Shown piece by piece: positions 1 to 42,424 of a stretch of DNA of 64,000 bases. The notes below the pieces were generated by a model. It did no database searches, was not told the origin of the DNA, and worked only from the letters and a program-made list of their open reading frames with translations. Position 1 is the stretch's first letter, and every line of letters starts with the position of its first letter. Both the position numbers and the translations under genes were made by a program. Source of the DNA: Methylosinus sp. H3A (GTDB lineage Bacteria; Pseudomonadota; Alphaproteobacteria; Rhizobiales; Beijerinckiaceae); the NCBI RefSeq assembly GCF_015709455.1, contig NZ_JADNQW010000003.1:124001-188000 (forward strand). Reading direction: 5' to 3'.

Positions 1-122
1 CCCGGAAGGCGCGCGTCGATGTCGGCGATTCCGAACGGAAGGACCGATTTGACGCGCCGCGCCCGGCCTTCGATCTTCTCGATCTGCGCGCGCAACGACT
101 CTATGGCGGGCTCGTGCCGCAA
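1..122 (-). CDS. imuA: ImuA-like SOS mutagenesis protein, N-terminal fragment (runs off the window)
   Basis: Reading leftward from a TTG at 122, the reverse strand encodes a continuous frame to the window edge. It includes ESLRAQIEKIEG followed by RVKSVLPFGIADIDARLP. That arrangement, a short helix and then a V-L-P-F-G-hydrophobic-x-x-I-D-x-x-L-P block, is what I know from the start of ImuA/SulA-like RecA-fold proteins. ImuA works with ImuB and DnaE2 in error-prone translesion synthesis. The LexA-type box 38 bases upstream fits the known SOS control of imuAB-dnaE2. A purine-rich GAGAAGG lies just before the TTG. Only about 40 codons are present and the start codon is a choice, so identity rests on a short block plus the regulatory site. 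Confidence 0.65.
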   Translation of the reverse strand, partial: MRHEPAIESLRAQIEKIEGRARRVKSVLPFGIADIDARLP

Positions 123-159
123 TCGCCTTCTCGACCTCTGGGTGTGGGTTCAACGTCAT

Positions 160-174
160 GTTCTCTAAATGTTC
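160..174. promoter_or_regulatory. LexA (SOS) box, alphaproteobacterial type
   Basis: The sequence GTTCTCTAAATGTTC is a perfect GTTC-N7-GTTC direct repeat, the LexA operator form described for Alphaproteobacteria. It lies between the divergent imuA-like gene (start 122) and the helicase gene (start 367). It is closer to imuA, a known SOS gene. It may or may not also act on the helicase gene. Confidence 0.8.
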
Positions 175-366
175 TCCCCTTCGAGGTCGGGAGTCAAGAG
201 GACGGGGTTGCGGATATTTCTCTGCGAGGAAGGCCGCGCGAACGCTTCGTGGCGCCTCGAGCAATTTCGAGGGGCCGCAGCTTCGATTTTCGTGATACGC
301 CGCCATTGCGAACAAAACAAGAATCATGGTTCAGTCCGCTGGCCCGCTCACCCTGCCGATTCGCCC

Positions 367-2430
367 ATGACCGCCGTCGCCTATCTCGAAAAGCTCAACG
401 CCGAACAGCGCCGCGCCGTCGAGCACGGCCTTGCTGACGGCTCGTCGGCCTCCGCCGGCGGCCCGCTGCTCATCATCGCGGGCGCAGGCTCCGGAAAGAC
501 GAACACGCTCGCCCATCGGGTCGCGCATCTCATCGTCCGGGGAGCCGATCCGCAGCGCATGTTGCTGATGACCTTCTCCCGCCGCGCCGCCGCCGAGATG
601 ACGCGGCGGGTCGAACGCATTTGCGCCGAGGCGCTGGGCGCCACAGGCGGCGGCGATGTCCTCGTCTGGGCCGGCACGTTTCACGCGATCGGCGCGAGGC
701 TGCTGCGCGAATATGCCGGCGCCATCGGGCTCGATCCCGCCTTCACCATTCATGATCGCGAAGATTCCGCCGATCTGATGAATCTCCTCCGCCACGAGCT
801 CGGATTCTCGAAGACCGAGAGCCGCTTCCCTGCCAAAGGCACATGCCTTTCGATCTACTCCCGCGCCGTGAACGCCGAAATCCCGCTCGAGCAGGCGCTG
901 CTCGGCGCCTTCCCTTGGTGCGCCCGCTGGCATGACGAGCTGCGCCGCATATTCGCCGCCTATGTCGAGGCGAAGCAGGCGCAGAATGTGCTCGATTACG
1001 ATGATCTCCTGCTCTATTGGGCGCAGATGATGCAGGACGAAGCCCTCGCAGACGAGATCGGCGGCCGCTTCGATCACATTCTCGTCGACGAATATCAGGA
1101 CACCAATCGCCTCCAGGCCTCCATCCTGCTCGCCTTGAAGCCCAAGGGCCAGGGGCTCACCGTCGTCGGCGACGATGCGCAATCCATCTACTCCTTCCGC
1201 GCCGCCACTGTGCGCAACATTCTGGAATTTCCGAAGAGCTTCACGCCGCGGGCGGAAATCGTCACGCTCGACCGCAATTATCGCTCGACCGAGCCGATTC
1301 TCGCCGCGGCCAACGCGGTCATCTCGCTCGCCGCCGAGCGCTACGCCAAGAACCTCTGGACCGAGCGCCGTTCCTCGGAGCGGCCGCAGCTCGTCGCCGT
1401 GCGCGACGAGAGCGATCAGGCGCGTTTCATCGCCGAGCGTGTGCTCGAGGCGCGCGAAGCCGGCATGACGCTGAAGCAGCAGGCGACTCTGTTCCGCGCC
1501 TCGCATCACAGCGCAATGTTGGAGCTGGAGCTCGCGCGCCGCAACATTCCCTTCGTGAAGTTCGGCGGGCTGAAGTTCCTCGACAGCTCCCATGTGAAGG
1601 ATGTTCTCGCTTTGCTGCGCTTCGCGCAGAATCCGCGCGATCGCGTCGCCGGCTTTCGCATTCTGCAAATCCTGCCCGGCGTCGGCCCCTCCTCCGCGCA
1701 GAAAATTCTCGATTTCCTCATCGAGCGCCCGGACCCGCTCGCCTGCCTCGCCGAGGCGCCGTCGCCGCCGCGCGCCGGCGAGGAGTGGCGCGGCCTCGTC
1801 GCGACGCTGCAAATTCTGCATGCGAGAGAGCGCTGGCCGGCGGAAATGGAAGCGGCGCGCCGCTGGTACGAGCCGCATCTCGAGCGGCTGCACGAGGACG
1901 CGCCGAGCCGCCTCGCCGATCTCGTCCAGCTCGAGCAGATCGCAGCTTGCTATCCCTCGCGCGAGCGCTTCCTCACCGAGCTGACGCTCGACCCTCCGGA
2001 CGCGACGAGCGACGAGGCCGGCCCGCCTCTGCGCGACGAGGATTATCTGATCCTATCGACGATTCATTCCGCCAAGGGGCAGGAGTGGAAGTCGGTCTTC
2101 GTGCTGAACGCTGTCGACGGTTGCATCCCCTCCGATCTCGCGACGGGAACGGCGGCGGAGATAGAGGAGGAGCGTCGGCTGCTCTATGTCGCGATGACGC
2201 GCGCGAAGGACAGCCTGCGCCTAGTGACGCCGCAGCGCTTTTTCACCCATGGCCAGCCGGCGCAGGGCGACCGGCATGTCTACGCCGCGCGCACGCGTTT
2301 CATTCCCGCGGAGCTGCTGCGGCATTTCGACTGCGTGAGCTGGCCGGTCGCTGCGGCCGCGGGCGAGCGTCTCGCCGGGGGTGGGCTGCGGGTCGATGTG
2401 CGTGCAAAGATGCGGGGGATGTGGGGGTGA
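367..2430 (+). CDS. UvrD/PcrA-type SF1A ATP-dependent DNA helicase
   Basis: A 687-aa helicase expected to unwind DNA 3' to 5' during repair. Family motifs appear in order: LNAEQRRAV (Q motif) at the start, GAGSGKT (Walker A, about residues 37-43), TFSRRAAAEM, DEYQD (Walker B), GDDAQSIYSFRAA, the RNYRS motif, TIHSAKGQEW and LLYVAMTRAK near the C-terminus. I chose the ATG at 367 because it places LNAEQ close to the N-terminus; an open frame extends upstream to 169 but its translation looks non-coding. It is somewhat shorter than E. coli UvrD (720 aa). It lies divergent from the imuA-like gene with a LexA box between them. It is probably a resident repair gene outside the mobile segment. Confidence 0.9.
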   Translation: MTAVAYLEKLNAEQRRAVEHGLADGSSASAGGPLLIIAGAGSGKTNTLAHRVAHLIVRGADPQRMLLMTFSRRAAAEMTRRVERICAEALGATGGGDVLVWAGTFHAIGARLLREYAGAIGLDPAFTIHDREDSADLMNLLRHELGFSKTESRFPAKGTCLSIYSRAVNAEIPLEQALLGAFPWCARWHDELRRIFAAYVEAKQAQNVLDYDDLLLYWAQMMQDEALADEIGGRFDHILVDEYQDTNRLQASILLALKPKGQGLTVVGDDAQSIYSFRAATVRNILEFPKSFTPRAEIVTLDRNYRSTEPILAAANAVISLAAERYAKNLWTERRSSERPQLVAVRDESDQARFIAERVLEAREAGMTLKQQATLFRASHHSAMLELELARRNIPFVKFGGLKFLDSSHVKDVLALLRFAQNPRDRVAGFRILQILPGVGPSSAQKILDFLIERPDPLACLAEAPSPPRAGEEWRGLVATLQILHARERWPAEMEAARRWYEPHLERLHEDAPSRLADLVQLEQIAACYPSRERFLTELTLDPPDATSDEAGPPLRDEDYLILSTIHSAKGQEWKSVFVLNAVDGCIPSDLATGTAAEIEEERRLLYVAMTRAKDSLRLVTPQRFFTHGQPAQGDRHVYAARTRFIPAELLRHFDCVSWPVAAAAGERLAGGGLRVDVRAKMRGMWG

Positions 2431-2433
2431 GCG

Positions 2434-2493
2434 ATGACGGCGACGGAGCCGAAGGTAAAGCGCGTCGTCTATGCCGCGCGCACCCACTCCTGA
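2434..2493 (+). pseudogene. Start of a truncated gene (19 codons) after the helicase gene
   Basis: Just after the helicase stop codon an ATG opens a frame reading MTATEPKVKRVVYAARTHS and then stops. It begins like an ordinary protein and sits where an operon partner would be, but it ends abruptly. Base composition falls after about 2490. I read this as a gene whose 5' end survives at the edge of an inserted segment. The function is unknown. Confidence 0.3.
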
Positions 2494-2942
2494 ATGAAGC
2501 TCAGTTCCGGGAATGACATAGCCGAAAGAAACCAAGAATACGCCCACCCCTGACCCTTTGCGGACTCTGGGAGCGTCCGGTTCAGGGTAGTTAGTTCGCT
2601 CTGGAACTGGTCTTCCCCAGTCCTAGCGACAGTTGCAATGTCATCTTAGATCTGGGCGGTTACGCGTAGGCCACTGACTGGCTCAGCGGTCGCGGCATTG
2701 ACGTTGACCGCATAACCTCGTCCGTTCCGAGTCGGCTACGATCCGGCGATCAAGTTGCTCTTCGAAAGTAGCCAGGATGTCGCTGAACGGCATGTAGCGC
2801 TGCATCTGATTGCGCGAATGGCGCTCAGCAACGACACTTTGCAACTTGCCGGCGGTCGGCGAAAAATGGTTCAAGAACTACCGGATGGCCGCCTGACGGT
2901 TCGCTAAAGGGTCAGGCGCTCGCTGAAGCAAGGGGGGCGTTC
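2494..2942. other. Intergenic stretch with possible gene remnant
   Basis: No complete gene is visible. On the + strand, a frame ending at the TAA at 2905-2907 reads like a C-terminal fragment (LIARMALSNDTLQLAGG, then KMVQELPDGRLTVR). It has no start codon in a sensible place and a stop just upstream. The leftward 63-codon frame here has no recognisable features. The promoter of the following operon should lie at the right end. Confidence 0.3.
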
Positions 2943-2948
2943 TTGGAT

Positions 2949-3602
2949 ATGAGGCACAATTCGGAAGCCGATTGGTGGTCCGAATGGAAGGAGCTCAGCG
3001 ATGCCGGCAGTCTTGGAACGCGAAGGCCCGAAGAGGTGGTCCGAGCCTGCCGTAAGCTTGACCAACCGCGGCACGATCGCCTGAGGGGCAAGCTCCTCAA
3101 GCATTTGACGGACCTGGCCAGAGCTTATCTTCGGCCACGCGTTCGTCAGGACCTGGTCGATGGCGGGCGCGAGGTCATCGAAGAGGTCATAGAGATCCTC
3201 TCCGTCGCGGTCTTGACGCCGTCCGCGGCAGATGGTGTCGGCTTCGAGACGGCCTTCCACGCGAAACTTCGCCAACGATTGGTGGATCGGATCAGGGCGT
3301 CGCTCAAGGATCGCGACGTCATCGAGCAAGAGGCCGTCGATCCCGAGACGGGCATCGCGACAGAGCCGCCGGACTGGAACCAACTCAGTCCGGAAGACAA
3401 CGCCGTAATCGCCGACGCCATCGCGAAATTACCGCATCTGCAACGAAAGGCCTTCCAGCTGCACCGCCTGGGTTTTCGCTACACGTCTTCCAACCCGAAC
3501 GAGAGCATTGCAGTAATGCTTGGGAAGACGCCGAAAACCGTCCAGGACTGGGTCGAGAAGGCCGAAAGGCAGATCCTTGAACTCTTGGGATCGAACAAAT
3601 GA
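2949..3602 (+). CDS. Sigma-70-like (ECF-type) factor, first gene of the ubiquitin-like operon
   Basis: A protein of about 217 aa whose C-terminal third looks like sigma region 4: DAIAKLPHLQRKAFQLHRLGF, then SIAVMLGKTPKTVQDWVEKAERQIL, a helix-turn-helix with the family's usual 'x-x-L-P-x-x-x-R-x-A-F' lead-in. The N-terminal part is helical and only weakly like region 2 (RLVDRIRASLKDRD). A G-rich tract at 2932-2937 is a plausible ribosome binding site and also fits a TTG start at 2943. The gene overlaps the next one by four bases (ATGA), so the two are probably translationally coupled. I infer that it directs transcription of this operon. Alternatively it is a DNA-binding regulator that has lost core-polymerase contacts. 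Confidence 0.7.
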   Translation: MRHNSEADWWSEWKELSDAGSLGTRRPEEVVRACRKLDQPRHDRLRGKLLKHLTDLARAYLRPRVRQDLVDGGREVIEEVIEILSVAVLTPSAADGVGFETAFHAKLRQRLVDRIRASLKDRDVIEQEAVDPETGIATEPPDWNQLSPEDNAVIADAIAKLPHLQRKAFQLHRLGFRYTSSNPNESIAVMLGKTPKTVQDWVEKAERQILELLGSNK

Positions 3603-4147
3603 TAAGCGCATCCGAAACACTCGACGACGTCCTATTCGAATTCCATCAGGTCGCGGACCCGATCTCTCCCGAGCTGCTCAACGCCTGGACGGGTCGTTAC
3701 CCTCAGTTCGCGGACGAGATCCGCGCCCACGCGGTCGAGATCATGGACATGGAACTGCTCGCCTCGAGGCAGGCCGCGGCAGCCGCGCAGCCTCTCGTCG
3801 GCGAGATTGTCACCCTACGCGCCGCGCTCCAGGAAGCCGGAACGTCGTTGCGCGACTTCGCCGATCGGCTCGACATATCGCGATCGGTGGTCTCGGATAT
3901 CAACTCCGGTCGGATCGACCCGGCAACGATACCAAAGCGCTTCGCCCGCCTGGGAGCCGCGCAGATCGATAGGGCCATGGACTGGTTCGAATCCATCGTG
4001 AGGTCGTCTCGCGAGATGGCACCTACGCCCGCGTTCAAGGCAAAGGCTGCGCCGACCACCGGTCGCCAGAGGACTTGGGAGGAGGCCATTCGCGGTTCGA
4101 ACATGGCCGAGGATCGCCGGTCCTTCTGGCTTTCCGACGAGGACTGA
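3599..4147 (+). CDS. XRE-like helix-turn-helix regulator (likely repressor paired with ImmA domain)
   Basis: A 182-aa protein. The segment TLRAALQEAGTSLRDFADRLD, continued by ISRSVVSDINSGRIDPATIPKR (roughly residues 75-110), has the layout of an XRE/Cro helix-turn-helix. The N-terminal part resembles short regulatory domains found before such HTHs. It overlaps the sigma-like gene by four bases, and the ImmA/IrrE-helicase gene starts two bases after its stop. In ICEBs1 (ImmR/ImmA) and Deinococcus (DdrO/IrrE), an HTH repressor gene next to an ImmA-type protease gene forms a cleavage switch. By analogy this HTH protein may be the substrate of the downstream protease domain. The substrate relationship is inference. 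Confidence 0.65.
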   Translation: MISASETLDDVLFEFHQVADPISPELLNAWTGRYPQFADEIRAHAVEIMDMELLASRQAAAAAQPLVGEIVTLRAALQEAGTSLRDFADRLDISRSVVSDINSGRIDPATIPKRFARLGAAQIDRAMDWFESIVRSSREMAPTPAFKAKAAPTTGRQRTWEEAIRGSNMAEDRRSFWLSDED

Positions 4148-4149
4148 TC

Positions 4150-7100
4150 GTGGATATCTGGCGCGACATTCGATTGAAGGCGCGCCAGCGCCACACGGAA
4201 TCGGCCGCGACGGCATCGGCCGCCACGGCCGACGCGCTCATCAGATCGGGACTGAAGATCGCGAAGCTTCAGGTCGACGAGTTCGATCCCGGAACGGTCT
4301 TCGGCCCTGGAGTGTTCGGCGCACTGGAACGCGACGACGGGTTCGTTCGGCTGGCTTCCAACCTCGACGACAGCCAGAAAGCGGTCGTGGCCGCCCATGA
4401 GCTCGGCCACTATTGGCTGCACGACGAGACGGCCTTCATGATCCGCTCGACGGAGGCCGGCTTCGGTGGGCAGCCTATCGAGACCGGTTCGGATCGCGTC
4501 GTCGCCTACTCGCCTCGCGCAAGGCAGGAGGTCCAGGCCGACATCTTCGCGCAGGAATTTCTCCTGCCCGCCGATGCGCTCCGCGAGAAGCTTGTTGTCC
4601 AGCGTCAGCGCCCTTCGAAGATCGCCGAGGAAGCTGGCCTGCCCGTCGAGTTCGTTCGCATGCAGGCGATCCGTGCACTGTTGCTTCCGCCACTGACCGC
4701 TCCGGTCACGCCCGAGGCCTCCGGGCCTAGCCATCCTCTGGATCCCGAGCAGCGTGAGGCGGCCGAGTGGGATGAACGTCCCCTCATTCTCGATGCAGGT
4801 CCCGGAACCGGCAAGACCAAGACGCTGGTCGCCCGCATCAGGCATCTGATCAACAAGGATATCCCGCCGTCGAGCATCCTAGCGCTGACCTACTCGAACA
4901 AGGCCGCGGCCGAGATGATCGAGCGGATCGAGACGGTCAGTCCGGCCTCCGCTCCGCTGATCTGGGTCGGCACGTTTCACGCGTTCGGCCTGGAGTTGCT
5001 TCGCCTCCACCATCAGGCCGCGGGCCTGCCCCCCGATTTCAAGGTGCTGGATGAGGCGACGGCCTTGGCCGTTCTGGAAGGGCTCCTTGCGGAACTCTCC
5101 CTCGTCCATTTTCAGAACCTCTGGGACCCGACCCTCGAATTGAAGCCGATCCTGAAGGCGATCTCCCGCGCCAAGGACGAGATGGTATCTTACCAGGAAT
5201 ACGAAACGGCCGCCGCCCAAACGCTCAAGGACGCTGTGAGCGCCGATGAGATTGAAAGGGCTCAGAAGGCGGTCGAGGTAGGCAGGGTTTACCGGATCTA
5301 TCAGCAGGCACTGCTCGACCGGCATTGCCTGGACTTCGGTGACCTCGTCTACCGATCGACGGAACTACTATCCCGAAACCGTGCCATTCGGGACGAGGTC
5401 AGGGCCAAGCACCGCCACGTTCTTGTCGACGAATATCAAGACGTCAACTTCGCGAGCACGTCGCTGCTCGCACAGATCACCGATCAGGGCAAGAGGCTTT
5501 GGGTCGTGGCCGATCCCCGCCAGTCGATCTATCGTTTCCGCGGCGCTGCTCCGGCCAATACGGTCGACTTCACGAACCGGTACCCAGGGGCCCAACGCCG
5601 GCAACTGAAGACGAACTACCGTTCCTGCGATACGGTGGTGCGGGTCTTCGAGCGCTTCGGCGCAAGCATAGCGGCGGCGCCTCGTCCGGCGGCGAGCTGG
5701 AAAGCTCACCGCGGCAAGGTCGGCTTCGTCGAATTGGTGCAGGCCCCCGACCTGCGATCGGAAGCCGTCGCGATGCGGGATCAGATCGAGCGCCTGCGCT
5801 CCCTGGGTATCGGGTACGAGGACCAGGCGATCCTCGCCGGTACCCACCTCTGCCTTGCCCGCTTCGGCCGCATCCTGCAGGAGCTCGGCGTTCCCATCCT
5901 CTATCTAGGCGACATCTTCGAGCGCCCGGAAGTTCGCGACCTTTTGGCCCTGATCTCGTTGGGGGCGGAGCCGGGCGGCGTCGGCTTGATGCGTGTAGCG
6001 CAGTTCCCGCAATACGGGGCGACGCGCGAGGACGCGAAACGGGTCATCGGTCACGCCCGGGAGGCGAAGGAAGACGTCGTCGCGGCCTGCGCCAAGGCGG
6101 GCACGATCGCCGGCGTGTCCCCCACGGGTGCCGCTGGGCTTCGCCTCCTGTCGCAACATCTGAGCGGAACGGAATGGAATACGAGTCCCTGGCACCTCCT
6201 GAGCCACTATCTGCTTGAAGCCAGCGATTACCTGCGTCCGCTGCTGGATGCCGGCGACATACGTTCCCAGCAGTCGCTCGTGGCGATCTATCAGCTCCTC
6301 AAGTTCTGCCGTGAGCATCTCGACGCGAACCGCGGCGTCGGGGGACGGCGTAAGTTGCTGGACGATATCCGGAGGCTCGAACGGCTCGACGACGATCGCC
6401 AGTTCCGGATCATTCCGCCGGAGGCAACGGGCATAGCCGCCGTCCGCATGATGACGATCCACGGCTCGAAGGGACTGGAATTCCCTGCCGTTCACCTGCC
6501 GCAGGTTGCGACGCGGTACGTGCCGGGGGGCCGGCGGGCGGTGACATGCCCGGCGCCGAAGGGGCTGGAGCGGCTGGAGCTCTCTCCCGCGGAGCATGAG
6601 GCCGAATCGGAATGCTTGTTCTTCGTCGCTCTTTCGCGCGCCCGGGACGCGATGACCATCAGTCATGCGAGGCATTACACCGCCAAGGCCACGTGCAACC
6701 CTTCGAAATTCCTAAAGGATCTCGGAGGCGTCCTGCCGAGTGCCCGCACCGCGAGCTTGTCGCAAGGCATGTCCGCGAAGGCGGTCAGAATTCCTATCCC
6801 TTTGCAGGCGGAATTCGAGGAGTGGCACCTCGAAGTCTATTCCAAGTGTCCCGCGCGGTATCGGTACGAAGTCATAGATGGCCTGAGAGGTCCCAGCGAC
6901 GACAGCGCCTATCTCAAGTTCCACGGCTGCGTGAGGAAGACGATCCGCTGGATCTTCGACGAAATCAGAGAAGGCCGAACCGTGACGGCGTCGCTGGCCG
7001 TGGCGCGCCTCAAGGCGATATGGGCCGAGCAGGGCCCCGACCATGCGTTCGCGCCATTCTACCTCGCGGAGGCGACCAAGATGGTCGAGGGCGCGGCGAA

Positions 7101-7503
7101 CATGCCGATGTTGGGGATCGATGCCGACCGGGCCTGGTTCGCCGACTTGGCCGGAAAGCGGATTACCATGCGACCGGATCGTGTCGTCCTGACGCCTACC
7201 GGAGGTATCCTCGCGCAGAGGCTGAGGACGGGTCGCAAGAGCAAGAGCGAGCCGACGAAGCCGATCTGGGAATTGTTGCATTTGGCCGGTCGCCAGATGT
7301 TTCCAGGCCAAGCGGTCGAACTGGAGGCGTATTACCCGGCCCAATCCGATCGGTCGCCCATTCCGACCGTCGCCGGCAAGGGGCTGGAAGGCTACGCCGA
7401 AAGCATTGCCGGCATCGAGCAGGGCGAGTTCGCGCCGGTAGCCGGTAAGGACTGTCCGACTTGCCAATTCTACTTCGTCTGCACCTCCGAAGATTTTTCC
7501 TGA
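4150..7503 (+). CDS. ImmA/IrrE protease - UvrD-like helicase - RecB/Cas4-type nuclease fusion
   Basis: A protein of about 1117 aa, started at GTG 4150 directly after the HTH gene. Three parts are visible. (1) Residues about 70-145: an ImmA/IrrE zinc metallopeptidase with AAHELGHYWLH (HExxH at 83-87) and a downstream EVQADIFAQEFLLP helix carrying the third ligand. (2) Residues about 195-830: an SF1 helicase with GPGTGKT (217-223), TYSNKAAAEMIER, DEYQD, DPRQSIYRFRGA, NYRS, TIHGSKGLEFPAV and LFFVALSRARD. (3) A C-terminal region with one Cys in SKCPARYRYE and three in CPTCQFYFVC, the spacing of the iron-sulphur cage of AddB/Cas4-type PD-(D/E)XK nucleases; the nuclease core itself is less clear. 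Its place in the operon suggests a DNA-sensing helicase tied to a regulatory protease. Confidence 0.85.
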   Translation: MDIWRDIRLKARQRHTESAATASAATADALIRSGLKIAKLQVDEFDPGTVFGPGVFGALERDDGFVRLASNLDDSQKAVVAAHELGHYWLHDETAFMIRSTEAGFGGQPIETGSDRVVAYSPRARQEVQADIFAQEFLLPADALREKLVVQRQRPSKIAEEAGLPVEFVRMQAIRALLLPPLTAPVTPEASGPSHPLDPEQREAAEWDERPLILDAGPGTGKTKTLVARIRHLINKDIPPSSILALTYSNKAAAEMIERIETVSPASAPLIWVGTFHAFGLELLRLHHQAAGLPPDFKVLDEATALAVLEGLLAELSLVHFQNLWDPTLELKPILKAISRAKDEMVSYQEYETAAAQTLKDAVSADEIERAQKAVEVGRVYRIYQQALLDRHCLDFGDLVYRSTELLSRNRAIRDEVRAKHRHVLVDEYQDVNFASTSLLAQITDQGKRLWVVADPRQSIYRFRGAAPANTVDFTNRYPGAQRRQLKTNYRSCDTVVRVFERFGASIAAAPRPAASWKAHRGKVGFVELVQAPDLRSEAVAMRDQIERLRSLGIGYEDQAILAGTHLCLARFGRILQELGVPILYLGDIFERPEVRDLLALISLGAEPGGVGLMRVAQFPQYGATREDAKRVIGHAREAKEDVVAACAKAGTIAGVSPTGAAGLRLLSQHLSGTEWNTSPWHLLSHYLLEASDYLRPLLDAGDIRSQQSLVAIYQLLKFCREHLDANRGVGGRRKLLDDIRRLERLDDDRQFRIIPPEATGIAAVRMMTIHGSKGLEFPAVHLPQVATRYVPGGRRAVTCPAPKGLERLELSPAEHEAESECLFFVALSRARDAMTISHARHYTAKATCNPSKFLKDLGGVLPSARTASLSQGMSAKAVRIPIPLQAEFEEWHLEVYSKCPARYRYEVIDGLRGPSDDSAYLKFHGCVRKTIRWIFDEIREGRTVTASLAVARLKAIWAEQGPDHAFAPFYLAEATKMVEGAANMPMLGIDADRAWFADLAGKRITMRPDRVVLTPTGGILAQRLRTGRKSKSEPTKPIWELLHLAGRQMFPGQAVELEAYYPAQSDRSPIPTVAGKGLEGYAESIAGIEQGEFAPVAGKDCPTCQFYFVCTSEDFS

Positions 7504-7591
7504 CACGACTACCGAATCCATCGGGCCAGGTTCGCTGAAAGGGTAGAAGGGGCGGCAGGTTCCGCCTCGCTGTTCGAATAGCGAGCCTTTC

Positions 7592-8458
7592 ATGATCCAG
7601 CCTGCCCACGCCAACGTCCCGCGTTTCCAGATCCTGATCGGGGACGCGGAGCTCAACTTTCGTCAGATCGAGATCCCCGATCCGATCGTCACCGGCCGCC
7701 AGATCCTCGAAGGTGCCGGCGCCCGCCCCGTCGACGAGCATTTGGCCATCGCCGTCCTGCCGGACGGTGCGCTGGAAACCCTGCGCGAGGAGGAACTCTT
7801 CGACCTTCGCGCGAAGGGGGCCGAGAAGGTCCTGATCTTCAAGACTGACCGCTCCTTCCGCTTCAAGGTCGACGACCGCGAGCGCGAATACGGGACCAAC
7901 TTGGTCAGCGGTCGCGCGCTCAAGATCCTGGCCGGCGTCGATCCCGCCACGCACGATGTCTACCAGGAAATCCGGGGCGGCGAGGACCTGCAGATCCGCA
8001 ACGCCGATTTCGTCGATCTGTCGAAGCCCGGCGTGGAGAAGTTCTTCACGGCGATCGCGCAGACGACCGAGGGCCTTTCCATCTTCCTGCCACCCCGCGA
8101 CGTTGAGTATCTCGCCAGGCGGGGCATAGCCTATGAGGACGGCTCGGAAGCAGGGCACGCTGGCGTCGTGTTGAAGGCGCTTCCTCTGCCAGAGGGCAAG
8201 TTCACATCGACGGCGGTCAATGTCCTGGTCCTCTTGCCGCCGGGCTACCCCGACTGCCCGCCGGACATGTTCTACTGCCTTCCCTGGCTGAAACTGCAGC
8301 GGACCGGAGGCGATCCCCGGGCGGCATCGGTACCGCATCCCTTCCGCGGCCAGACTTGGCAGCGCTGGTCGCGACACAAAAACGCGTGGCGTCCCGGCGT
8401 CGACGGTATTCACACGATGGTGAAGCGCATCGAGCTCGCCCTCACCGAGGCGGCCTGA
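7592..8458 (+). CDS. Tandem ubiquitin-like (multiubiquitin) - E2-like fusion protein
   Basis: A 288-aa protein. Residues about 11-84 and 88-155 are two similar beta-grasp units: each has a 'F-x-(I/V)-x-(I/V)-D/G...' first hairpin, a GRQIL or GRALKIL helix, and a D-E-H or T-H-D segment. This matches the bacterial multiubiquitin family. Residues about 164-288 look like the prokaryotic E2 family E: LLPPGYPDCPPDMFYCLP, then TWQRWSRH and AWRPGVDGI. In canonical E2 enzymes the catalytic Cys precedes the W-x-P motif. Here no Cys lies between WSRH and WRPG; the only nearby ones are in PDCPP and FYCLP. The chain ends LALTEAA without a terminal Gly-Gly. The E1 gene follows after one base, so the two are surely co-expressed. 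How the ubiquitin-like units become available for conjugation is unclear. Confidence 0.8.
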   Translation: MIQPAHANVPRFQILIGDAELNFRQIEIPDPIVTGRQILEGAGARPVDEHLAIAVLPDGALETLREEELFDLRAKGAEKVLIFKTDRSFRFKVDDREREYGTNLVSGRALKILAGVDPATHDVYQEIRGGEDLQIRNADFVDLSKPGVEKFFTAIAQTTEGLSIFLPPRDVEYLARRGIAYEDGSEAGHAGVVLKALPLPEGKFTSTAVNVLVLLPPGYPDCPPDMFYCLPWLKLQRTGGDPRAASVPHPFRGQTWQRWSRHKNAWRPGVDGIHTMVKRIELALTEAA

Positions 8459-8459
8459 C

Positions 8460-9836
8460 ATGCTCGACATGATCCTCCTCGAAGGGCACGAAGCGGAGCT
8501 GCGCGCCCTTCTGGCCGCCGCCGATGGCGCCGAGGCATCGGCTTACGTCCTTCTGGGCAAGGCTGACGTCACTGCCGATCCATGGACCCGCAAGGCGCGT
8601 CGGCGCCTTGTCTCCCACAAGGTCGTCCCGGTGCCGGCCGAGGACAGGATCTCGGCCTCCGGCGTTCACGTGACGTGGTCGACGAGGTCGTTCGTCAGGT
8701 TGCTGAAGCAGGCCGAGGAGAGCGGTCTCACGCTCGGCATCGTGCATACGCATCCCGGCAGCCATGCCTTCTTCTCCGATCAGGACGATCGCAACGAAAC
8801 CGAGCTGCTGCGGATCGTGACGAACCGGTCCGGCGCCGGCCATGGCTTCGCCAGCGTCGTGCTAGGCGGCGATGGCAGCGTCTGCGCTCGCCTGTGGACG
8901 AGTCCGTCAGAGGCGACGCTCTGCGAGCGCATCACGGTCCCGGGCCGCCGCCTGGTCGTCCACGGCATTCAGGCCCCAGCGTACGACGCGATGCTCGATC
9001 GGCAAGCGAGGCTGTTCGGCACGTCGTTCAATCCCATCGTGCGCAGCCTGCGGATCGGGGTGGTCGGCTGCGGCGGCACCGGCAGTCCCACGGCCATGAT
9101 GTTGGCCCGCCTCGGCGTGGGAGGCTTGCTGCTGGTCGATGACGACGTCATTGAGTTGACCAATCTCAACCGCGTCCACGGCTCCCGTCGAAGTGACGCC
9201 GATGGCGGTCGCGCGAAGGTCGATGTCCTGGCGCGGGAGATCCGGGAAGCCGATCTCGGCGTTGATGTCGTCACCTTCAAGGGATGGGTCGGCGATGCGA
9301 GAGCCCGCGATGCCCTGCGCTCCTGCGACGTCGTCTTCGGATGTACCGACGATCACGACGGCCGTCTTTTCCTGAACAGGCTCGCTTACTTCTACGGCAT
9401 CCCCGTCGTTGACATGGGCGTCCGTATCATTCCGGCCAGCAAGGACCGCCCCTATGAGATGGCCGGCCGCGTCACGCTCGTCACTCCTGGCGCGCCTTGT
9501 CTCCTGTGCCGCGGCTTGGTCGACCCGGTGCGGGCGCGCGAGGAGGCGCTCAAGCGCACCGATCCGGACGAGTACGACCGTCGCAAGGCCGAGGCCTACG
9601 TCGCGGGCGGCGGCGATCCTGCGCCTGTCGTGGTCACCTTCACGACGGAGACTGCCTGCATGGCCGTTAACGAGCTCCTTCAGGGTCTGACGGCGTTTCG
9701 AGGGGATGGCGGCATGAAGACGGAACGTCGGCGGCGCTTCGATACGGTCGAGTACCTGCGTCCCCCGGCGCGAGTGCGACCTGTGCGCGAACGACACGAT
9801 CTGGGGGCGAGCCGACGTAGCCCCGTTCCTGCATAG
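8460..9836 (+). CDS. JAMM deubiquitinase-like - ThiF/E1-like adenylyltransferase fusion
   Basis: A 458-aa two-domain protein. The N-terminal half is a JAB/MPN protease: HTHPGSHAFFSDQD gives a perfect JAMM signature (His96, His98, seven residues, Ser106, Asp109), with Glu25 as a candidate fourth residue. From about residue 195 it is a ThiF/E1 domain: GVVGCGGTGSPTAMMLARLG nucleotide loop (GxGGxG at 203-208), LLLVDDDVIELTNLNR, FGCTDDHDGR, and a PCLLC pair that could bind metal or include the reactive Cys. E1 enzymes adenylate the C-terminus of a ubiquitin-like protein; JAMM domains cut ubiquitin-like adducts or precursors. The fusion puts activation and processing in one chain. It starts one base after the upstream gene. 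Confidence 0.88.
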   Translation: MLDMILLEGHEAELRALLAAADGAEASAYVLLGKADVTADPWTRKARRRLVSHKVVPVPAEDRISASGVHVTWSTRSFVRLLKQAEESGLTLGIVHTHPGSHAFFSDQDDRNETELLRIVTNRSGAGHGFASVVLGGDGSVCARLWTSPSEATLCERITVPGRRLVVHGIQAPAYDAMLDRQARLFGTSFNPIVRSLRIGVVGCGGTGSPTAMMLARLGVGGLLLVDDDVIELTNLNRVHGSRRSDADGGRAKVDVLAREIREADLGVDVVTFKGWVGDARARDALRSCDVVFGCTDDHDGRLFLNRLAYFYGIPVVDMGVRIIPASKDRPYEMAGRVTLVTPGAPCLLCRGLVDPVRAREEALKRTDPDEYDRRKAEAYVAGGGDPAPVVVTFTTETACMAVNELLQGLTAFRGDGGMKTERRRRFDTVEYLRPPARVRPVRERHDLGASRRSPVPA

Positions 9837-9851
9837 GATTGGGTAGCCGTC

Positions 9852-10211
9852 ATGAAGCGCCTTATAGCAAAAACCTTCCGCTGGCTCGGCCTGATCGAAT
9901 TCGACCTGTTGTCGCGTAAGTCCGAGACCTATCCCCGCGAGGAGCAGGTGGTTCCTGGCGAACTCGTCTTCGTGGTCGACGCAGGAATCGAGAAATGGGC
10001 ATGCTTCAAATGCCCGGGAGGGTGTGGGACCACCATCCCTCTCTCCCTCAATCCTAAGCGCCGGCCAAGGTGGGCCGTCGCCCTGGACTGGTTTCAGAGA
10101 CCGACCGTAAATCCTTCGGTGCATCAGAAGAACGGTTGTGGTTGCCACTTCTGGATTACGCAGGGACGAATCGATTGGTGTAAGGACGGGAAACCAAACA
10201 CAGGTGCTTGA
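9852..10211 (+). CDS. DUF6527-like metal-binding protein of the ubiquitin-like operon
   Basis: A 119-aa protein with Cys and His arranged as a likely metal site: WACFKCPGGCGTTIPLSL in the middle, then NGCGCHFWI and IDWC near the C-terminus. This pattern matches the small DUF6527 family, which I know as a regular neighbour of bacterial multiubiquitin/E1/JAB genes. Its role is not established; a structural zinc or iron site is likely. It starts 15 bases after the JAMM-E1 stop and is the last gene of the operon. Confidence 0.65.
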   Translation: MKRLIAKTFRWLGLIEFDLLSRKSETYPREEQVVPGELVFVVDAGIEKWACFKCPGGCGTTIPLSLNPKRRPRWAVALDWFQRPTVNPSVHQKNGCGCHFWITQGRIDWCKDGKPNTGA

Positions 10212-10360
10212 GCATGACCTCCTCCTCGAACATCTTCTGGTTGCGGACTTCATTGGCAAGCTCGACAAAGGCGCTGACAGTGCGGAACATCCGATTTCGG
10301 GCAGTCGCTCAATGTCCGATCATGGCGCACCTCGCCGTTCGTGAACGTGAAAAAATGACC

Positions 10361-10380
10361 GATTGTGTTGAAAAACTCGG
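10361..10380. repeat. IS-end-like 20-bp repeat, copy 1
   Basis: GATTGTGTTGAAAAACTCGG occurs here and, identically and in the same orientation, at 17030-17049, where it precedes a broken IS1182-like transposase gene. Such GTTGAAAAACTC sequences are typical of ends of that IS group. No transposase is seen next to this copy, so it is probably a leftover or solo end. The rest of the 10212-10791 interval has no convincing gene. Confidence 0.6.
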
Positions 10381-10431
10381 GAAAATGGCACTCGTCAAAT
10401 CCGGTGCAAAGCACTTTTCAGGCGAGCATCG

Positions 10432-10701
10432 TCAGTGAATGCCATCGTGCGGGATCAGCCGAAGCCCAGCATTCATTTGACGCGTTGGCAGGTAGACCCC
10501 CGGCTCGTTTTCCGATTGGCGCATCACCGGCTTCGAGAAATTTCGACCGGCCTTCCAAAAGACTTTTTCAACAGTATCGACCCAAAGCGGCCGCTCGTCT
10601 ACCTCAACCGCGATGCACAACTTGGGTGGAAAGCCGTCTTCACTCCAACCGCCGACGATGACATCGATGCGCCAATTGCAACCTGGATGTCTATCGACCA
10701 T
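10432..10701 (-). CDS. Possible small hypothetical protein (uncertain)
   Basis: An 89-codon leftward frame starts with ATG at 10701 and contains NWRIDVIVGGWSEDG and LCIAVEVDERPLWVDTVEKV, which read like real protein. The overlapping rightward frame that leads into the metallophosphoesterase gene also lacks stops here, so the strand cannot be decided by eye. I recognise no family. It lies just right of the IS-end-like repeat and may be a remnant of the former element's cargo. Confidence 0.25.
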   Translation of the reverse strand: MVDRHPGCNWRIDVIVGGWSEDGFPPKLCIAVEVDERPLWVDTVEKVFWKAGRNFSKPVMRQSENEPGVYLPTRQMNAGLRLIPHDGIH

Positions 10702-10791
10702 TGCGTTGGACGCCTTCCGTCTAATATCCTCAGGCTTTGGCTTGCTGGAGATTCGGGTTCTCCTGCAGGTTTGTTATTGTTTTTACAGATG

Positions 10792-12090
10792 GAGGCGCTC
10801 TTGGCGTTCCGGTTTGTTCATAGCGCAGACATCCATCTGGACTCGCCGCTCAGGTCGCTGGCTCTTCTCAATCCGGAGTTGGGGGGCCTGATCGGCGGGG
10901 CGACCCGACAAGCCTTTAAGAACGTCGTCGATCTGTGCATTGAGGAGAGAGTGGACGCTCTCATCCTCGCCGGCGACCTTTATGATGGCGATCAGACGTC
11001 TATGAAGACGGCTCGCTTCTTTGCCAGCCAACTCGATCGCCTGGATAAGTCGGGTATCAAGGCGTTCGTCGTCCGTGGCAATCACGACGCAGAATCAAAA
11101 ATCTCGGCCGAGTTGACCTATCCGGAAAGTGCCAAGCTTTTCAGGGGATGGGCTGACTACGTTGAGTTGCTTGGTGTTTGCGGGGGAAGGAATGTTGCCA
11201 TCCACGGCATCAGTTTCGCCAAGCCTCATGCACCGGAAAGCTTGCTGCCGAAATTCAAGCCGCCGGTCTCGGGGGCGATCAACATAGGAATCATGCACAC
11301 GAGCCTGACGGGAAGCGATGGGCACAATGTCTATGCGCCGTGTAAGCTGACGGAACTGCAGGATTTTGGCTACCGCTACTGGGCTCTAGGTCATCTTCAT
11401 AAGAGAAGCATTTTTAAGGGCGATTGCACGATCGTCATGCCTGGCAATCCTCAAGGGCGTGATGTCAACGAAGCCGGCTCGAAGTCGGCGACTCTCGTGA
11501 CGGTGGGCGACGACGGCTCGTTTACGGTTGAAGAGCGCCCGACCAGTGTCGCGGAATTCGTCCGCATTCCGGTTTCAGTCGCGGGATGCGAGGACTGGAG
11601 ATCGGTCGTTGATACGGTCCGCAAGGGACTCGAAGCGGCGCGTTCGGAGGCTGTCTCTGATTACCTTGTCGGTCGCGTCCTTTTGTCCGGCGTGACTCCG
11701 ACGGCGTTCGAACTCTTCGCTAAAGCCGATCTTCTGAAAGAGGAGATCGACCATCAGGCGGGGCTTTTGGGCAAGACGTGGGTTGAAAAGATCGAGATCG
11801 CGTGTGCGTCTGGAGCAGCGCCATCGTCGGAGGATTCAGCGTCCACGATCGCTGAACTCGAAGCGATCATGAACGAAAACGTGATGGGGACGGACTCGTT
11901 CATGCTGGAGCTTCAGGGACTTGCCGACGAGTTGAAGAAGGGACTGAAAAACACCCCTCGTGAATCCTACGGGATTTTCGCGCCTTCCGACGAGGAGGTT
12001 TTCAAATCGCGTCTGAGCGAACTCGCCCGAGACGGCGCCCGGGAGGTGGTGGCTCGCTTGCGGATCGAATCTTCGAAGGAATCTCTTTGA
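10792..12090 (+). CDS. SbcD/Mre11/YhaO-like metallophosphoesterase (DNA exonuclease subunit)
   Basis: A protein of about 432 aa with the Mre11/SbcD motif series: VHSADIHLDSPL (D-x-H), ILAGDLYDGDQ (GDxxD), VVRGNHDAES (GNHD), a GIMHTSL His and LGHLHKRS (GHxH). These residues bind two metals for nuclease action. I chose ATG 10792 because the family begins with '(F/L)(V/I)H(S/T)ADxHL'; the frame is open further upstream but has no family resemblance there. The length fits YhaO/SbcD. Its TGA overlaps the ATG of the next gene (TGATG), which ties it to the large coiled-coil ATPase as a two-subunit machine. Such pairs act in end processing and also occur in phage-defence loci. Confidence 0.85.
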   Translation, partial: EALLAFRFVHSADIHLDSPLRSLALLNPELGGLIGGATRQAFKNVVDLCIEERVDALILAGDLYDGDQTSMKTARFFASQLDRLDKSGIKAFVVRGNHDAESKISAELTYPESAKLFRGWADYVELLGVCGGRNVAIHGISFAKPHAPESLLPKFKPPVSGAINIGIMHTSLTGSDGHNVYAPCKLTELQDFGYRYWALGHLHKRSIFKGDCTIVMPGNPQGRDVNEAGSKSATLVTVGDDGSFTVEERPTSVAEFVRIPVSVAGCEDWRSVVDTVRKGLEAARSEAVSDYLVGRVLLSGVTPTAFELFAKADLLKEEIDHQAGLLGKTWVEKIEIACASGAAPSSEDSASTIAELEAIMNENVMGTDSFMLELQGLADELKKGLKNTPRESYGIFAPSDEEVFKSRLSELARDGAREVVARLRIESSKESL

Positions 12091-15000
12091 TGCGCCTTCG
12101 TCGTCTCAACCTCGCGCGCTACGGAAAATTCACTGATTTTCCTTTTGATTTCGGTGCGCTGGAACCAGGAAAACCCGACTTTCACGTCATTTTCGGGCCG
12201 AACGAGGCGGGCAAGTCGACGACCTTATTCGCCATTCTCGACCTGTTGTTTGGGATCGAACATAACACACGCTACGGTCATCTCCATGGGTTCGACAATA
12301 TGGAGATCAGCGCGGAGGTCGAATTCGCCAGCGGCTTGCGAGAATTTCGTCGCCGGAAGAAGCGGTCGAACAGCTTGCTTGACGCTTATGGCAATCCATT
12401 GCCAGAAACCGCCATTTTGGATGAAATGGGCGGTTTGAGCCGGGAAGACTACCGGTTCATGTTCTCTCTCGACGAAGCTATGCTCGCAAAGGGCGGAGAA
12501 GCCATTCTGGCGAACAAGGGCGATCTGGGGCAATTGCTGTTTTCAGCTAGCGCCGGCCTTGCCGACCTCAGCCAGAATCTCAATGCGATGCGAGGTGTGA
12601 CCGAAGCCTTCTTTAAGGAGGGTGGCCGCAAGCATGAACTTGCAAGCCTCAAGGACTCTTTGAAGGATCTCGCTGAGAAGAGGGAAGAGTGCGACACGCA
12701 GGCCACGGTCTATGCGAAACTCGTGGCCGAAAGCAAATGCGCCGAGGAGAATTACAGAAAAGCGCTCGAAGACCGCACACAGGCGCAACGCGACAAGGAA
12801 GCGATCGAAGCGATCGAAATTGCACTCCCGCGCATCGTGAAGTTCGAGGAGTTGAGCCAGAAGATCGCCGAACTCGGCGAACTGCCGGATGCAGCGCCGG
12901 AATTAAAGGATACCGCCTCGAAGCTGCGCGACGAGGCGATCCGTCTGGAGACGGAGCTCGCGGGCGCTGTCGCTCGCGTCGCCGATCTCGAACGTGAGAT
13001 CGAGGCGATCGTCGCCGACGAGACAATTCTGAAGGAAGGCGAGACCTTCGCGAAGCTCGACAAACCGCGCTCCAGGAGCTTGACGGCCCTGGAGGACTTG
13101 CCAAATCGCAAACTTGAAAAAGATCGACTCAGCGCGAAGATCAAGACGGCGCTGCGCGATATCGGCCGGGATGAGAATGACGATGCCCGCGAGCTTCTGC
13201 TCGACGCCAGAACAAAAGTGCGGCTCACGGAGCTCGGCGGCGCATGGGGCGCTTTGGACACCGCGCAGAAGACGGCGAAGCGCGAGCAAGCGCAGGCGGT
13301 CGAAAAGGAGCACAAGGCCCGCGAAAGGAGAACCTCGGCCAGGGTCGTCGACAGCGGGAATGGCTTGCGCCTACTCTCTGGCGTCGTTCACGACGTTCGC
13401 GAAGGTGGTTTCGATACCAAGGTCTCGGAGGCGCGCAAGAAGGCGCATAAGTTGAAGTCTGAACTCGCCGGCGCGATGGCGCCGCTCGGTCCCTGGTCAG
13501 GCTGTGCGGAAGATCTGCGTTCGCTTCGGGTTCCCGGCCCGACGGCTATCGCGCAATGGGCGTCGGATGTCTCGACCGCTGAAAAGGCGTCAAAAGATAC
13601 CGAAAGCGCGGTCCAAACCTTATCGTTCGATATCGAGCGGCTCATTGCGGAGAGAGACTGCGCATCTGCCGGCTTTGGCGTCATGTCCGACAGCGAGGCC
13701 GCTGTAAGGCGCGGCGATCGCGAAAAGGCTTGGGCCGAGCACCGGCGCCGTCTCGACTCCGAAACCGCAGATGCGTTCGAGGAAGCCCTGCGCGCCGACG
13801 ATCTCGTGATATCGGCCCGGATCAATCACGCGAACGAGGTGGCGAAAGTCAATGTCGCCGTGGCGGCCATCATCCTCAAGGAAGCTGAACAAAAGACCGC
13901 GATCGTGGGTCGCGATAAGGCCAAGGGTGAAGAAGCCGCGTTGCGGAAAAAGATCGCCGACGCGATCACGATGATTTCGGAACATTTCCCGGAAAGCATG
14001 GATGTTGCCGCATTCGAGGCTTGGATCGAGCGCTACGAGACAGCAACCCGGGCTTTGAACGCCCTTTTAAACGGCGAAAGCGAGTTGCGTGGCTTCGAAT
14101 TGGACCTGTCCGAGGCTTTGTCGCGCCTTCGCAATGCTCTGGCGCGTGTCGGCGTCGCCTTTGCCGAAGGCGACGATCTGAAGACTCTTCTCCAGCTCGG
14201 GCAAAATGCGCTCGACGCAGAGATGACGCTCAAAGGGCTCGACGAATCTTTGACGACGGCGCAGGAGGATTTGAAGCAGCGCGACAAGGATCTTTCCGAT
14301 GCGCAAAAAGCCGTCGACCAATGGCGCGCCGACTGGAAAGAGGCCTGCGAATCCTGCTGGATCGGGCAAACGCACCCTGACGCCGCGACGACGCTCGTCA
14401 GCGCCATTGTCGAAAAACTGAAGACGCTCGAAGGAGACGTCTCTGCACACAAAGATCTCGATTATCGCATCGAGGCGATGACCAAGGACCTGGAGAATTT
14501 TGAAAAGGAAGTGCGAGAGATCGCCGCGAGGATAGGCGTCGGCGTCGATGGACGCTCGTCTCTCGCGCTGTTTGACGTTCTGAAAGCGCGCATCGAGGTC
14601 GAAGAGACTAAGGCGCGCGACCGCGACGCGAAATCGCAAGATCTCGATCAGGAGCGAGAAAAGGTCAGGAAATTTCACGATTCGAGCGATCAGAACGTGA
14701 CGCGCCAGCACGAGATCTTGTCGCTGCTGGGGGTTGAGACTCTCGACGCAGCCCTTGTTGTTCTCGCCAGGATCGCAACGCGAGCCAACTACCGAGAAAG
14801 TATGGCGTTCGAGGAGAAGGAAGTTCTCGGTCGACTGAAGGTCGACTCCATGGTGGAAGCGTCGGTCAAGGCGCGGGAAAGCGACTTGGCGGAAATGGCT
14901 AGCCTCAGGATAGACGCTCAAAACCGTTTCGATGAAGCCGACGGCCGAATGAGAACGTCTTTCGCTCAGAAGGCGAAACTTGACAGCGTAATCGAAACTG

Positions 15001-15563
15001 TCGGCGGGGATGACGCTGTTGCGCGAATCGAGGAGCAGCGTCGGACGATCTGCCTCGAGATCGAAGACAAGTCGCTACGCTGGTTCCGGCTGCGCGCCGG
15101 CGTGGTGGCCGCTGAGCGCGCATTGCGCATTTATCGCGACAAGCATCGCAGTTCGATGCTCGCCAGCGCGTCGGCCGCCTTCTCGACGATCAGTCGTGGG
15201 ATGTATGAGGGTTTATCGACGATTGTCGACGGGGCGAAAGAGCAACTCGTGGGCGTCGTCGCCGATACGAAGGGAACGCGAAATTCAGAGGAAATGTCCA
15301 CGGGAACGCGATTTCAGCTCTTCCTAGCGCTTCGTGTCGCAGGCTATCTGGAGTTTGCTAGGACGCGTCAATCCGGCGCGCTTGTTCCGTTCGTCGCGGA
15401 CGATATCCTGGAGACTTTCGACGACGGACGTTCCGAGGAGGCGTTCCGTCTCCTGTTGCAAATGGCCCAATTCGGACAGGTTATTTACCTAACCCATCAT
15501 GAGCATCTTTGCGCGATAGCCCAAGCGGTATGTCCTGATGTGAGGCTACACCGGTTCGACTAA
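12090..15563 (+). CDS. SbcC/Rad50/YhaN-like coiled-coil ATPase
   Basis: A protein of about 1157 aa. The N-terminus has GKFTDFPFDF followed by IFGPNEAGKSTTLFAILDLL (Walker A of the YhaN/AAA_27 type). The centre is a long heptad-rich coiled coil full of Glu, Lys, Asp and Ala. The C-terminus has TGTRFQLFLALRVAGYLEF (signature motif), VPFVADDILETFDDGR (Walker B and D-loop) and a final VIYLTHHEH His switch. I see no CxxC zinc hook in the middle, which fits YhaN better than SbcC. It partners the upstream phosphoesterase through a TGATG overlap. Location between an IS-end-like repeat and a broken resolvase suggests acquisition as a cargo pair. Confidence 0.85.
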   Translation: MRLRRLNLARYGKFTDFPFDFGALEPGKPDFHVIFGPNEAGKSTTLFAILDLLFGIEHNTRYGHLHGFDNMEISAEVEFASGLREFRRRKKRSNSLLDAYGNPLPETAILDEMGGLSREDYRFMFSLDEAMLAKGGEAILANKGDLGQLLFSASAGLADLSQNLNAMRGVTEAFFKEGGRKHELASLKDSLKDLAEKREECDTQATVYAKLVAESKCAEENYRKALEDRTQAQRDKEAIEAIEIALPRIVKFEELSQKIAELGELPDAAPELKDTASKLRDEAIRLETELAGAVARVADLEREIEAIVADETILKEGETFAKLDKPRSRSLTALEDLPNRKLEKDRLSAKIKTALRDIGRDENDDARELLLDARTKVRLTELGGAWGALDTAQKTAKREQAQAVEKEHKARERRTSARVVDSGNGLRLLSGVVHDVREGGFDTKVSEARKKAHKLKSELAGAMAPLGPWSGCAEDLRSLRVPGPTAIAQWASDVSTAEKASKDTESAVQTLSFDIERLIAERDCASAGFGVMSDSEAAVRRGDREKAWAEHRRRLDSETADAFEEALRADDLVISARINHANEVAKVNVAVAAIILKEAEQKTAIVGRDKAKGEEAALRKKIADAITMISEHFPESMDVAAFEAWIERYETATRALNALLNGESELRGFELDLSEALSRLRNALARVGVAFAEGDDLKTLLQLGQNALDAEMTLKGLDESLTTAQEDLKQRDKDLSDAQKAVDQWRADWKEACESCWIGQTHPDAATTLVSAIVEKLKTLEGDVSAHKDLDYRIEAMTKDLENFEKEVREIAARIGVGVDGRSSLALFDVLKARIEVEETKARDRDAKSQDLDQEREKVRKFHDSSDQNVTRQHEILSLLGVETLDAALVVLARIATRANYRESMAFEEKEVLGRLKVDSMVEASVKARESDLAEMASLRIDAQNRFDEADGRMRTSFAQKAKLDSVIETVGGDDAVARIEEQRRTICLEIEDKSLRWFRLRAGVVAAERALRIYRDKHRSSMLASASAAFSTISRGMYEGLSTIVDGAKEQLVGVVADTKGTRNSEEMSTGTRFQLFLALRVAGYLEFARTRQSGALVPFVADDILETFDDGRSEEAFRLLLQMAQFGQVIYLTHHEHLCAIAQAVCPDVRLHRFD

Positions 15564-15619
15564 CTGTTTTTCGCGGCTCCGGATGGGAGATTAATGATGA
15601 ACTGAATGTTCATCGCGGA

Positions 15620-42372: not shown

Positions 42373-42424
42373 GTCTCTCCCTCCCCGAGTGCGCGGTGTT
42401 CGTCGAGCTGCTCTCATCCCGCTC

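Follow-up and report, generated by a model that had tools for sequence, protein, structure and literature searches.

How is a bacterial operon for ubiquitin-like conjugation switched on? The question is raised by six tightly packed genes at positions 2949-10211 (+) of a 64,000-nucleotide (nt) stretch of DNA from Methylosinus sp. H3A (the window), which belongs to contig C3 in a genome of 5.38 Mb. The first two genes overlap by 4 nt and the later gaps measure 2, 88, 1 and 15 nt. All six products were assigned to domains by TIGR or Pfam models, which bears out the six-gene arrangement proposed in an initial annotation of this DNA. The last three genes are a Bub (bacterial ubiquitination-like) operon. 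Sequence comparisons across genomes suggest that this operon is likely driven by a dedicated sigma factor of the extracytoplasmic function (ECF) type, which would come into play through a DNA-activated protease-helicase and would act at two matching promoters.

The first gene of the operon proper (7592-8458, +) encodes a BubAB fusion in which two Multi_ubiq stretches are followed by the motif TTEG and an E2-like domain (Pfam Prok-E2_E, 153.6). The adjacent gene (8460-9836, +) encodes BubCD, which combines a JAMM peptidase (Prok-JAB, 43.8; motif HTHPGSHAFFSDQD) with an E1 domain (ThiF, 134.1; motif GCGGTGS), and the last gene (9852-10211, +) encodes a zinc-finger-like DUF6527 protein (84.7). 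The BubAB and BubCD products have matches among PDB chains labelled Citrobacter BubA, BubB and BubCD, the latter with an E value of 6.2e-40. The ubiquitin-like (BubA), E2-like (BubB) and JAB-E1 (BubCD) proteins of a Bub operon are thus all present, and conjugation activity is predicted. That multiubiquitin/E1/JAB gene sets are known in bacteria, as the initial annotation noted, holds true, as the genes also match an operon type with a zinc-finger companion described in 2006 (Table 1, row 6e, in the available part of PMC1779556); a term search found none of helicase, sigma or helix-turn-helix in the main text of that paper. No cysteine of the E2-like domain is invariant across the 35 aligned homologues, and the E2-like domain of the 2006 type is likewise reported without a conserved cysteine in the part of PMC1779556 at hand.

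In the 35 aligned BubAB proteins, TTEG is invariant between the ubiquitin-like and the E2-like parts; a looser pattern search of 61 one-piece open reading frames (ORFs) found TTEG in 55, TTAG in five and neither in one. BubAB matches fell into two pieces in 19 loci, one of which (L036) holds a broken gene; the other 18 carry separate BubA and BubB genes, with the C-terminus of BubA being exactly TTEG. As the separate BubA ends exactly where the motif is invariant in the fused proteins, fused BubAB is probably a precursor that is cut at TTEG by the JAMM domain. Ubiquitin-like repeats, a cysteine-less E2-like fold, a JAB-E1 fusion and a zinc-finger companion are common to the window and the Bub pathway (Gong 2025 and Ye 2026, as cited in the available part of PMC13373217; PDB 9ea4, 9ea5, 9ea8, 9eae, 9eav), from which the window differs by the fusion of BubA to BubB. 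The three-gene cassette in front and the paired promoter-like elements are features of the window that do not appear in the accessible portion of the Bub-pathway description. PDB 8u38 (Ubl-BilA; species Methylobacterium brachiatum) also matches the ubiquitin-like part of BubAB; M. brachiatum (P0151) encodes a homologue, 58% identical, of the fusion protein described next, the link to 8u38 being the species name only.

The first gene of the cassette (2949-3602, +) encodes an ECF-like sigma factor of 217 amino acids (aa; 219 if translation starts at TTG 2943). Its product matches the sigma70-ECF model TIGR02937, by which regions 2 and 4 are recognized, with 44.1 bits (cut-off 42.9) over model positions 4-164 of 165, as do 41 of 42 homologues; Pfam Sigma70_r4_2 scored 25.1, just below its cut-off of 25.7. 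Profile searches of the PDB with the family retrieved sigma-E and other ECF factors (E ~1e-4), and the structural model is all-helical bar single residues (pLDDT 81.8, pTM 0.53). The second gene (3599-4147, +) encodes a helix-turn-helix (HTH) protein of 182 aa (HTH_3, 25.4, cut-off 23; Pfam), the presumed anti-sigma factor or repressor and protease substrate. It belongs to a conserved family with conserved N-terminal helices and an FK..xKP-like stretch, and was modelled with a pLDDT of 78.2 and a pTM of 0.54. The third gene (4150-7503, +) encodes a 1117-aa fusion of an M78 (ImmA/IrrE) protease, a UvrD helicase and an iron-sulfur (Fe-S) PD-(D/E)XK-like part (Pfam Peptidase_M78, 51.6; UvrD-helicase, 214.9; PDDEXK_1, 26.3, cut-off 22).

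To determine how firmly these genes belong together, we scanned genomes (one per species) with the BubAB alignment as query and took the best 80 of 188 relatives as Bub loci. A fusion homologue lies directly upstream and on the same strand in 44 of them. In all 40 of these that offer enough upstream DNA (38 judged by script, L023 and L056 from the ORF list; the other four begin inside the fusion gene at a contig end), sigma-sized and HTH-sized genes precede the fusion gene in the same order, the sigma identity having been checked by the family model in 30 of the 40. Shortly 5' of the sigma gene, an ORF of ~740 aa ends in many beta- and gammaproteobacterial loci (L031-L050, ~2700-4950; 5637-7856 in L050). 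The remaining 36 Bub loci have no fusion directly upstream, so that Bub operons do not need the cassette; among these, L033 and L048 begin inside a piece of the fusion, L052 probably does so, L068 has almost no upstream DNA, and L057 carries the cassette on the other strand.

Vice versa, we chose 25 loci by their fusion homologue: ten from genomes other than that of the window in which the match was nearly full-length (3 of 60 relatives, 2 of 289 in the class, 5 of 398 in the phylum), and 15 plasmid records picked for spread from 88 and 91 matches; one of the 25, L116, is identical to L069. All 25 carry ubiquitin-like conjugation genes, adjacent in 24 (divergent in L131 and L133) and beyond an IS66 element in L128. 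These genes are of three kinds: Bub-like with JAB-E1 (kind A, 8/25; L114 and L123 assigned by profile score only), a triple ubiquitin-like protein with DUF6791-E1 and DUF6527 (kind B, 8/25), and a small protein with DUF7665, JAB and ThiF proteins (kind C, 9/25). Of the 25 loci, 21 have the sigma gene and 24 the HTH gene according to profile searches; in L132 and L135 a gene annotated as LuxR-like stands in the sigma position. The cassette precedes kind C in two genus mates of the window (L112, L113) and kind A in a third (L114), indicating that it has been swapped between systems. The three front genes are therefore one conserved unit, and the linkage counts exclude a chance neighbourhood of six genes. 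The initial annotation had staked its proposal on homologous operons keeping the first three genes; this holds in one direction, as none of the 25 fusion-chosen loci is without conjugation genes, and fails in the other for the 36 Bub loci named above.

The window contains two copies of CTACCG(G/A)AT-N13-TTCGCT(A/G)A, one (P1; 2878-2907, +; CTACCGGAT-N13-TTCGCTAA) located 41 nt 5' of the ATG of the sigma gene and the other (P2; 7509-7538, +; CTACCGAAT-N13-TTCGCTGA) in the 88-nt gap before bubAB. A search of the window's own genome with CTACCGRAT-N13-TTCGCT, allowing up to two mismatches, returned 19 places versus 11 for the reversed control; only the two operon sites are perfect and one other place has a single mismatch. 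Genome G633 has the two sites (0 and 1 mismatch) and four other one-mismatch places, with 4 in all for the reversed control; these background matches limit genome-wide uniqueness to the window's genome. In the close clade (the window and L023-L027, which are related, L026 and L027 being the diverged ones), both regions carry the element with at most one mismatch and the same spacing (12/12). The 34 other loci depart from the window pattern by at least four mismatches upstream of the sigma gene and at least five in the gap. A pairwise search for shared two-box words in both upstream regions scored 13-16 out of 16 within the window clade against 12-15 in other loci, and was not used as proof.

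Other clades possess a sister element, CTTWCCGGT-N13/14-GCGATTGAC, just 3' of the fusion stop codon. With a matrix built from 68 P2 gaps, 60 of these same gaps score higher than 11.8, a threshold set at the 99th percentile of 760 150-mers drawn at random from the scanned loci. Among Bub loci that lack the cassette, none of the 30 scored rises above background or exceeds 7.6 (the 36 loci minus L033, L048, L052 and L068 at contig ends, L050 with a fusion remnant and L057 with its cassette on the opposite strand). The eight failures are five close-clade loci, L105, L113 and L029; in the latter, a broken fusion gene misplaced the scored region, and a site scoring 24.5 lies at 9888. A second matrix, from 14 beta- and gammaproteobacterial loci only, exceeds the 99% null in 19/22 other kind-A, 4/8 kind-B, 5/9 kind-C and 3/4 further kind-A loci, altogether 31/43 loci of other clades or kinds outside the window's clade. 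In whole-locus searches with the general matrix, the two best places are the P2 gap and P1 in 37/39 kind-A, 8/8 kind-B and 4/9 kind-C loci, and in 0/6 close-clade loci. Where the cassette lies on the other strand (L057), the element still precedes its operon.

The position of P1 in these clades provided a further view on the element. In 36 of these 37 kind-A and in 8/8 kind-B loci, the sigma gene itself contains P1, ~200-220 nt from the end of the gene; the four kind-C loci have P1 5' of the sigma gene, like the window. Within the intragenic P1, codon choice is frozen: arginine is CGG in 33/34, alanine GCG in 33/33 and isoleucine ATT in 34/34 loci, where codon usage within each locus would predict 0.22, 0.31 and 0.30, and no other of the 53 conserved columns is as strongly frozen as these three. 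The counts are inflated by relatedness (L101 and L102 do not differ in this stretch), but the loci come from alpha-, beta- and gammaproteobacteria, with one kind-B example on a cyanobacterial plasmid (L110). A fourth frozen codon just downstream, leucine TTA (23/34, expected 0.03), suggests that the element runs on. Between P2 and the start codon lies the leader of the conjugation operon (7539-7591, + in the window), which in relatives contains a recurrent hairpin (61 leaders with a median z of -2.5, 85% of them below -1). In 11 aligned leaders, a set that does not include the window sequence, 6/11 pairs show compensatory change and the covariation term is -0.52. In several leaders, the outer stem is formed between the 5' end and the AAGG region that precedes the start codon, so that the hairpin may also tune translation.

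From these sequence patterns we infer the following course of events. At rest, the HTH protein would keep the sigma factor or its promoters silent. Upon DNA damage or processing of foreign DNA, the presumed signal, the helicase part of the fusion would engage DNA ends or single strands, and the M78 domain would then cut the HTH protein. The sigma factor would then read both elements as promoters, firing P1 for the regulator genes in a positive feedback and P2 for BubAB, BubCD and DUF6527. The JAMM domain of BubCD would cut BubAB after TTEG, and the E1 domain would activate the mature ubiquitin-like part. The conserved three-gene unit and the promoter-like element that tracks with it make the inducible design put forward in the initial annotation the best reading of the locus, in which DNA sensing, cleavage of the HTH protein and recognition by the sigma factor stay presumptive. 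A wider form of the proposal would make the cassette a self-contained sigma regulon and a feedback switch. Its protease-helicase, acting as a DNA sensor, would release a dedicated sigma factor with only two target promoters, of which one lies ahead of the conjugation genes and the other either ahead of the sigma gene or within it; the same cassette would have been installed upstream of three or more different conjugation systems among proteobacteria, cyanobacteria and further phyla. We give this form slightly better than even chances.

Several points weigh against the sigma-driven circuit. Pfam Sigma70_r2 gave no match to the sigma product of the window, and beyond the close clade the HTH similarity is faint, HTH_3 being found in 3/17 family members at E 1. 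As the window pattern was drawn from both window sites, their own match is by construction, which does not apply to the absence of others. The P2 matrix was trained on the loci that it scored, and these loci are not independent of one another by descent (the sigma genes of L101 and L102 are identical). Box 2 of the window clade differs (TTCGCT), so that the general matrices score 0/6 there; kind C is weak with its 4/9, and next to the divergent operons of L131 and L133 no element was picked up with a crude pattern. Finally, the element, whose paired conserved copies would fit a cognate promoter, could instead be an operator of the HTH protein.

The latter possibility leads to the known controllers of such operons. 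M78 proteases activated by single-stranded DNA cut HTH repressors in PprI-DdrO and CapP-CapH, and CapW or CapH+CapP stand beside 219 of 544 Bub operons, CapK+CapS beside 59 (231 in a wider search), according to the available parts of PMC10904395 (for the former) and PMC13373217 (for both). Like CapH+CapP and PprI(IrrE)-DdrO, the window has an HTH gene followed by an M78 protease with HExxH beside an immune-type operon, and a presumed DNA signal. It differs in that the protease is not a standalone protein in a two-gene controller but is fused to a UvrD helicase and an Fe-S pseudo-nuclease, and in having, in addition, an ECF-like sigma factor with a pair of elements of its own. CapK+CapS and CapW are, in the accessible part of the same source, likewise DNA-damage controllers of Bub operons; the regulators of the window belong to other protein families. 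Several of these arrangements recur among the loci that were scanned with Pfam: an HATPase_c/HTH protein with a wHTH-like protein in L028 fits CapK+CapS, the L074 type has an HTH gene and a standalone M78 gene before the Bub operon, and L100 (7500-9561; also L054, L058, L064, L082, L084, L085 and L091, with Pfam run on L100 only) has an acetyltransferase-like (by eye), an HTH_19 and an M78 gene divergent from the Bub genes.

Repression alone might suffice: the HTH protein would repress through the paired element as its operator, the sigma factor would be a side component or co-regulator, and cleavage of the HTH protein would lift the repression. The HTH+M78 pairs beside Bub operons, both those reported in the available part of PMC13373217 and those of the L074 and L100 types, speak for this, as does the palindrome ACCGGT in box 1. 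However, two unlike boxes at a distance of 13-14 nt are better explained by a promoter than by a dimer site, the sigma gene occurs in all 40 judgeable Bub loci with the fusion upstream and by profile in 21 of the 25 fusion-chosen loci, and the HTH fold is barely recognizable in most relatives, which leaves repression alone an unlikely account. Regarding the sigma-driven circuit, L079 (7959-9780; also L067, L073, L081, L092, L096 and L098) shows a divergent arrangement of another ECF sigma factor, a small protein and a standalone M78 protein, the sigma proteins matching TIGR02937 in 7/7 loci and the M78 assignment resting on Pfam in L079 and on alignment with L079 in L073, L081 and L098. Profile comparison found no relation between this sigma factor and the window's family, and a 211-aa protein of another group (acetyltransferase-like by eye) is likewise unrelated to the window's family. 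The combination of sigma factor and M78 protease before Bub operons thus occurs in two unlike forms, which supports it as a working design.

The initial annotation knew of no description of the full wiring. Control of Bub operons by HTH+M78 pairs is in fact reported in the portion of PMC13373217 available, in which a term search for 'helicase' returned 0 hits; the conserved sigma/HTH/fusion cassette was not found in print. A sigma factor with a helicase fusion or with paired promoters was not found in the open-licence literature, and may stand in the primary operon tables for Bub or CapH/CapP, perhaps counted as CapH+CapP.

The fusion itself could be the effector rather than the sensor. Throughout the 39 fusions of the Bub set, HExxH, Walker A, DEYQD and cysteines 900, 1102, 1105 and 1111 are 100% conserved. 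The acid that precedes the motif lysine in PD-(D/E)XK nucleases is replaced by arginine at position 1024, in the window as in 94% of the 39 Bub-set fusions, 76% of close and 100% of distant homologues. With the catalytic acid replaced and the four cluster cysteines retained, the nuclease part is probably inactive, and its designation as a nuclease in the initial annotation was too strong. The upstream aspartate 1010 argues the other way, being kept in 58% of the Bub set, 97% of close and 100% of distant homologues, so that the case for a dead nuclease rests mainly on Arg 1024. For the C...CxxC...C cluster we take the AddB/Cas4-type Fe-S nucleases as the model, which the fusion resembles in its PDDEXK_1 match and its four invariant cysteines and from which it differs by the arginine. 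We read the protein as a protease-helicase with a DNA-gripping Fe-S pseudo-nuclease. As an effector, it would be a helicase-nuclease attacking foreign DNA, with the protease as a safety catch and the conjugation genes tagging or controlling it. UvrD-type helicases are indeed parts of defence systems (GajB-like matches were obtained) and the helicase motifs are intact. However, besides the lost acid, which disfavours an active nuclease, the gene sits among the regulators, 5' of P2, and the Bub genes and promoter elements of L050 persist although its fusion is lost, so that we regard an effector role as highly improbable. L050 (7853-9905), in which the sigma gene, the HTH gene and both elements are intact and the fusion is reduced to a remnant, represents a natural deletion. 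A scan of viral contigs with the window fusion for a phage-borne system yielded two distant helicases (27% identity, residues 197-869) without M78, and this candidate was dropped.

What the conjugation operon serves is a separate matter. With the control circuit as proposed, it might belong to a general DNA-damage stress pathway or a system for the maintenance of mobile elements rather than to phage defence, a possibility to which we assign a little less than even odds. Bub operons are described in the available part of PMC13373217 as not shown to stop phage, conjugation genes lie downstream in the window, and 15 homologues are located on plasmids; nothing decisive stands on the other side, where the same part of that source has related Ubl systems (Bil) acting in defence. 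The conjugation genes (window 22598-42882) place the operon near a conjugative element and comprise two TrwC relaxase ORFs (22598-24034 and 30766-33906), a TraD/TraG-like gene (36061-38379) and a T2SSE ATPase gene (41215-42882), with a Mu/IS21-like transposase (24135-25676) following the first TrwC ORF. A second UvrD-family helicase is encoded just 5' of the operon (169-2430, +), and an SbcD-like phosphoesterase and an AAA_27 protein form a pair directly 3' of it (10792-15563). No tRNA was found in the window, and no known RNA family in bases 1-16000.

The cassette provides a testable account of how many bacterial ubiquitin-like operons may be switched on and which signal to seek. The element offers a candidate promoter sequence for reporters and is a case of a promoter-like element preserved inside a coding sequence across a wide evolutionary distance. 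If the proposed circuit is true, sigma factors would join the devices that control immune-type operons.

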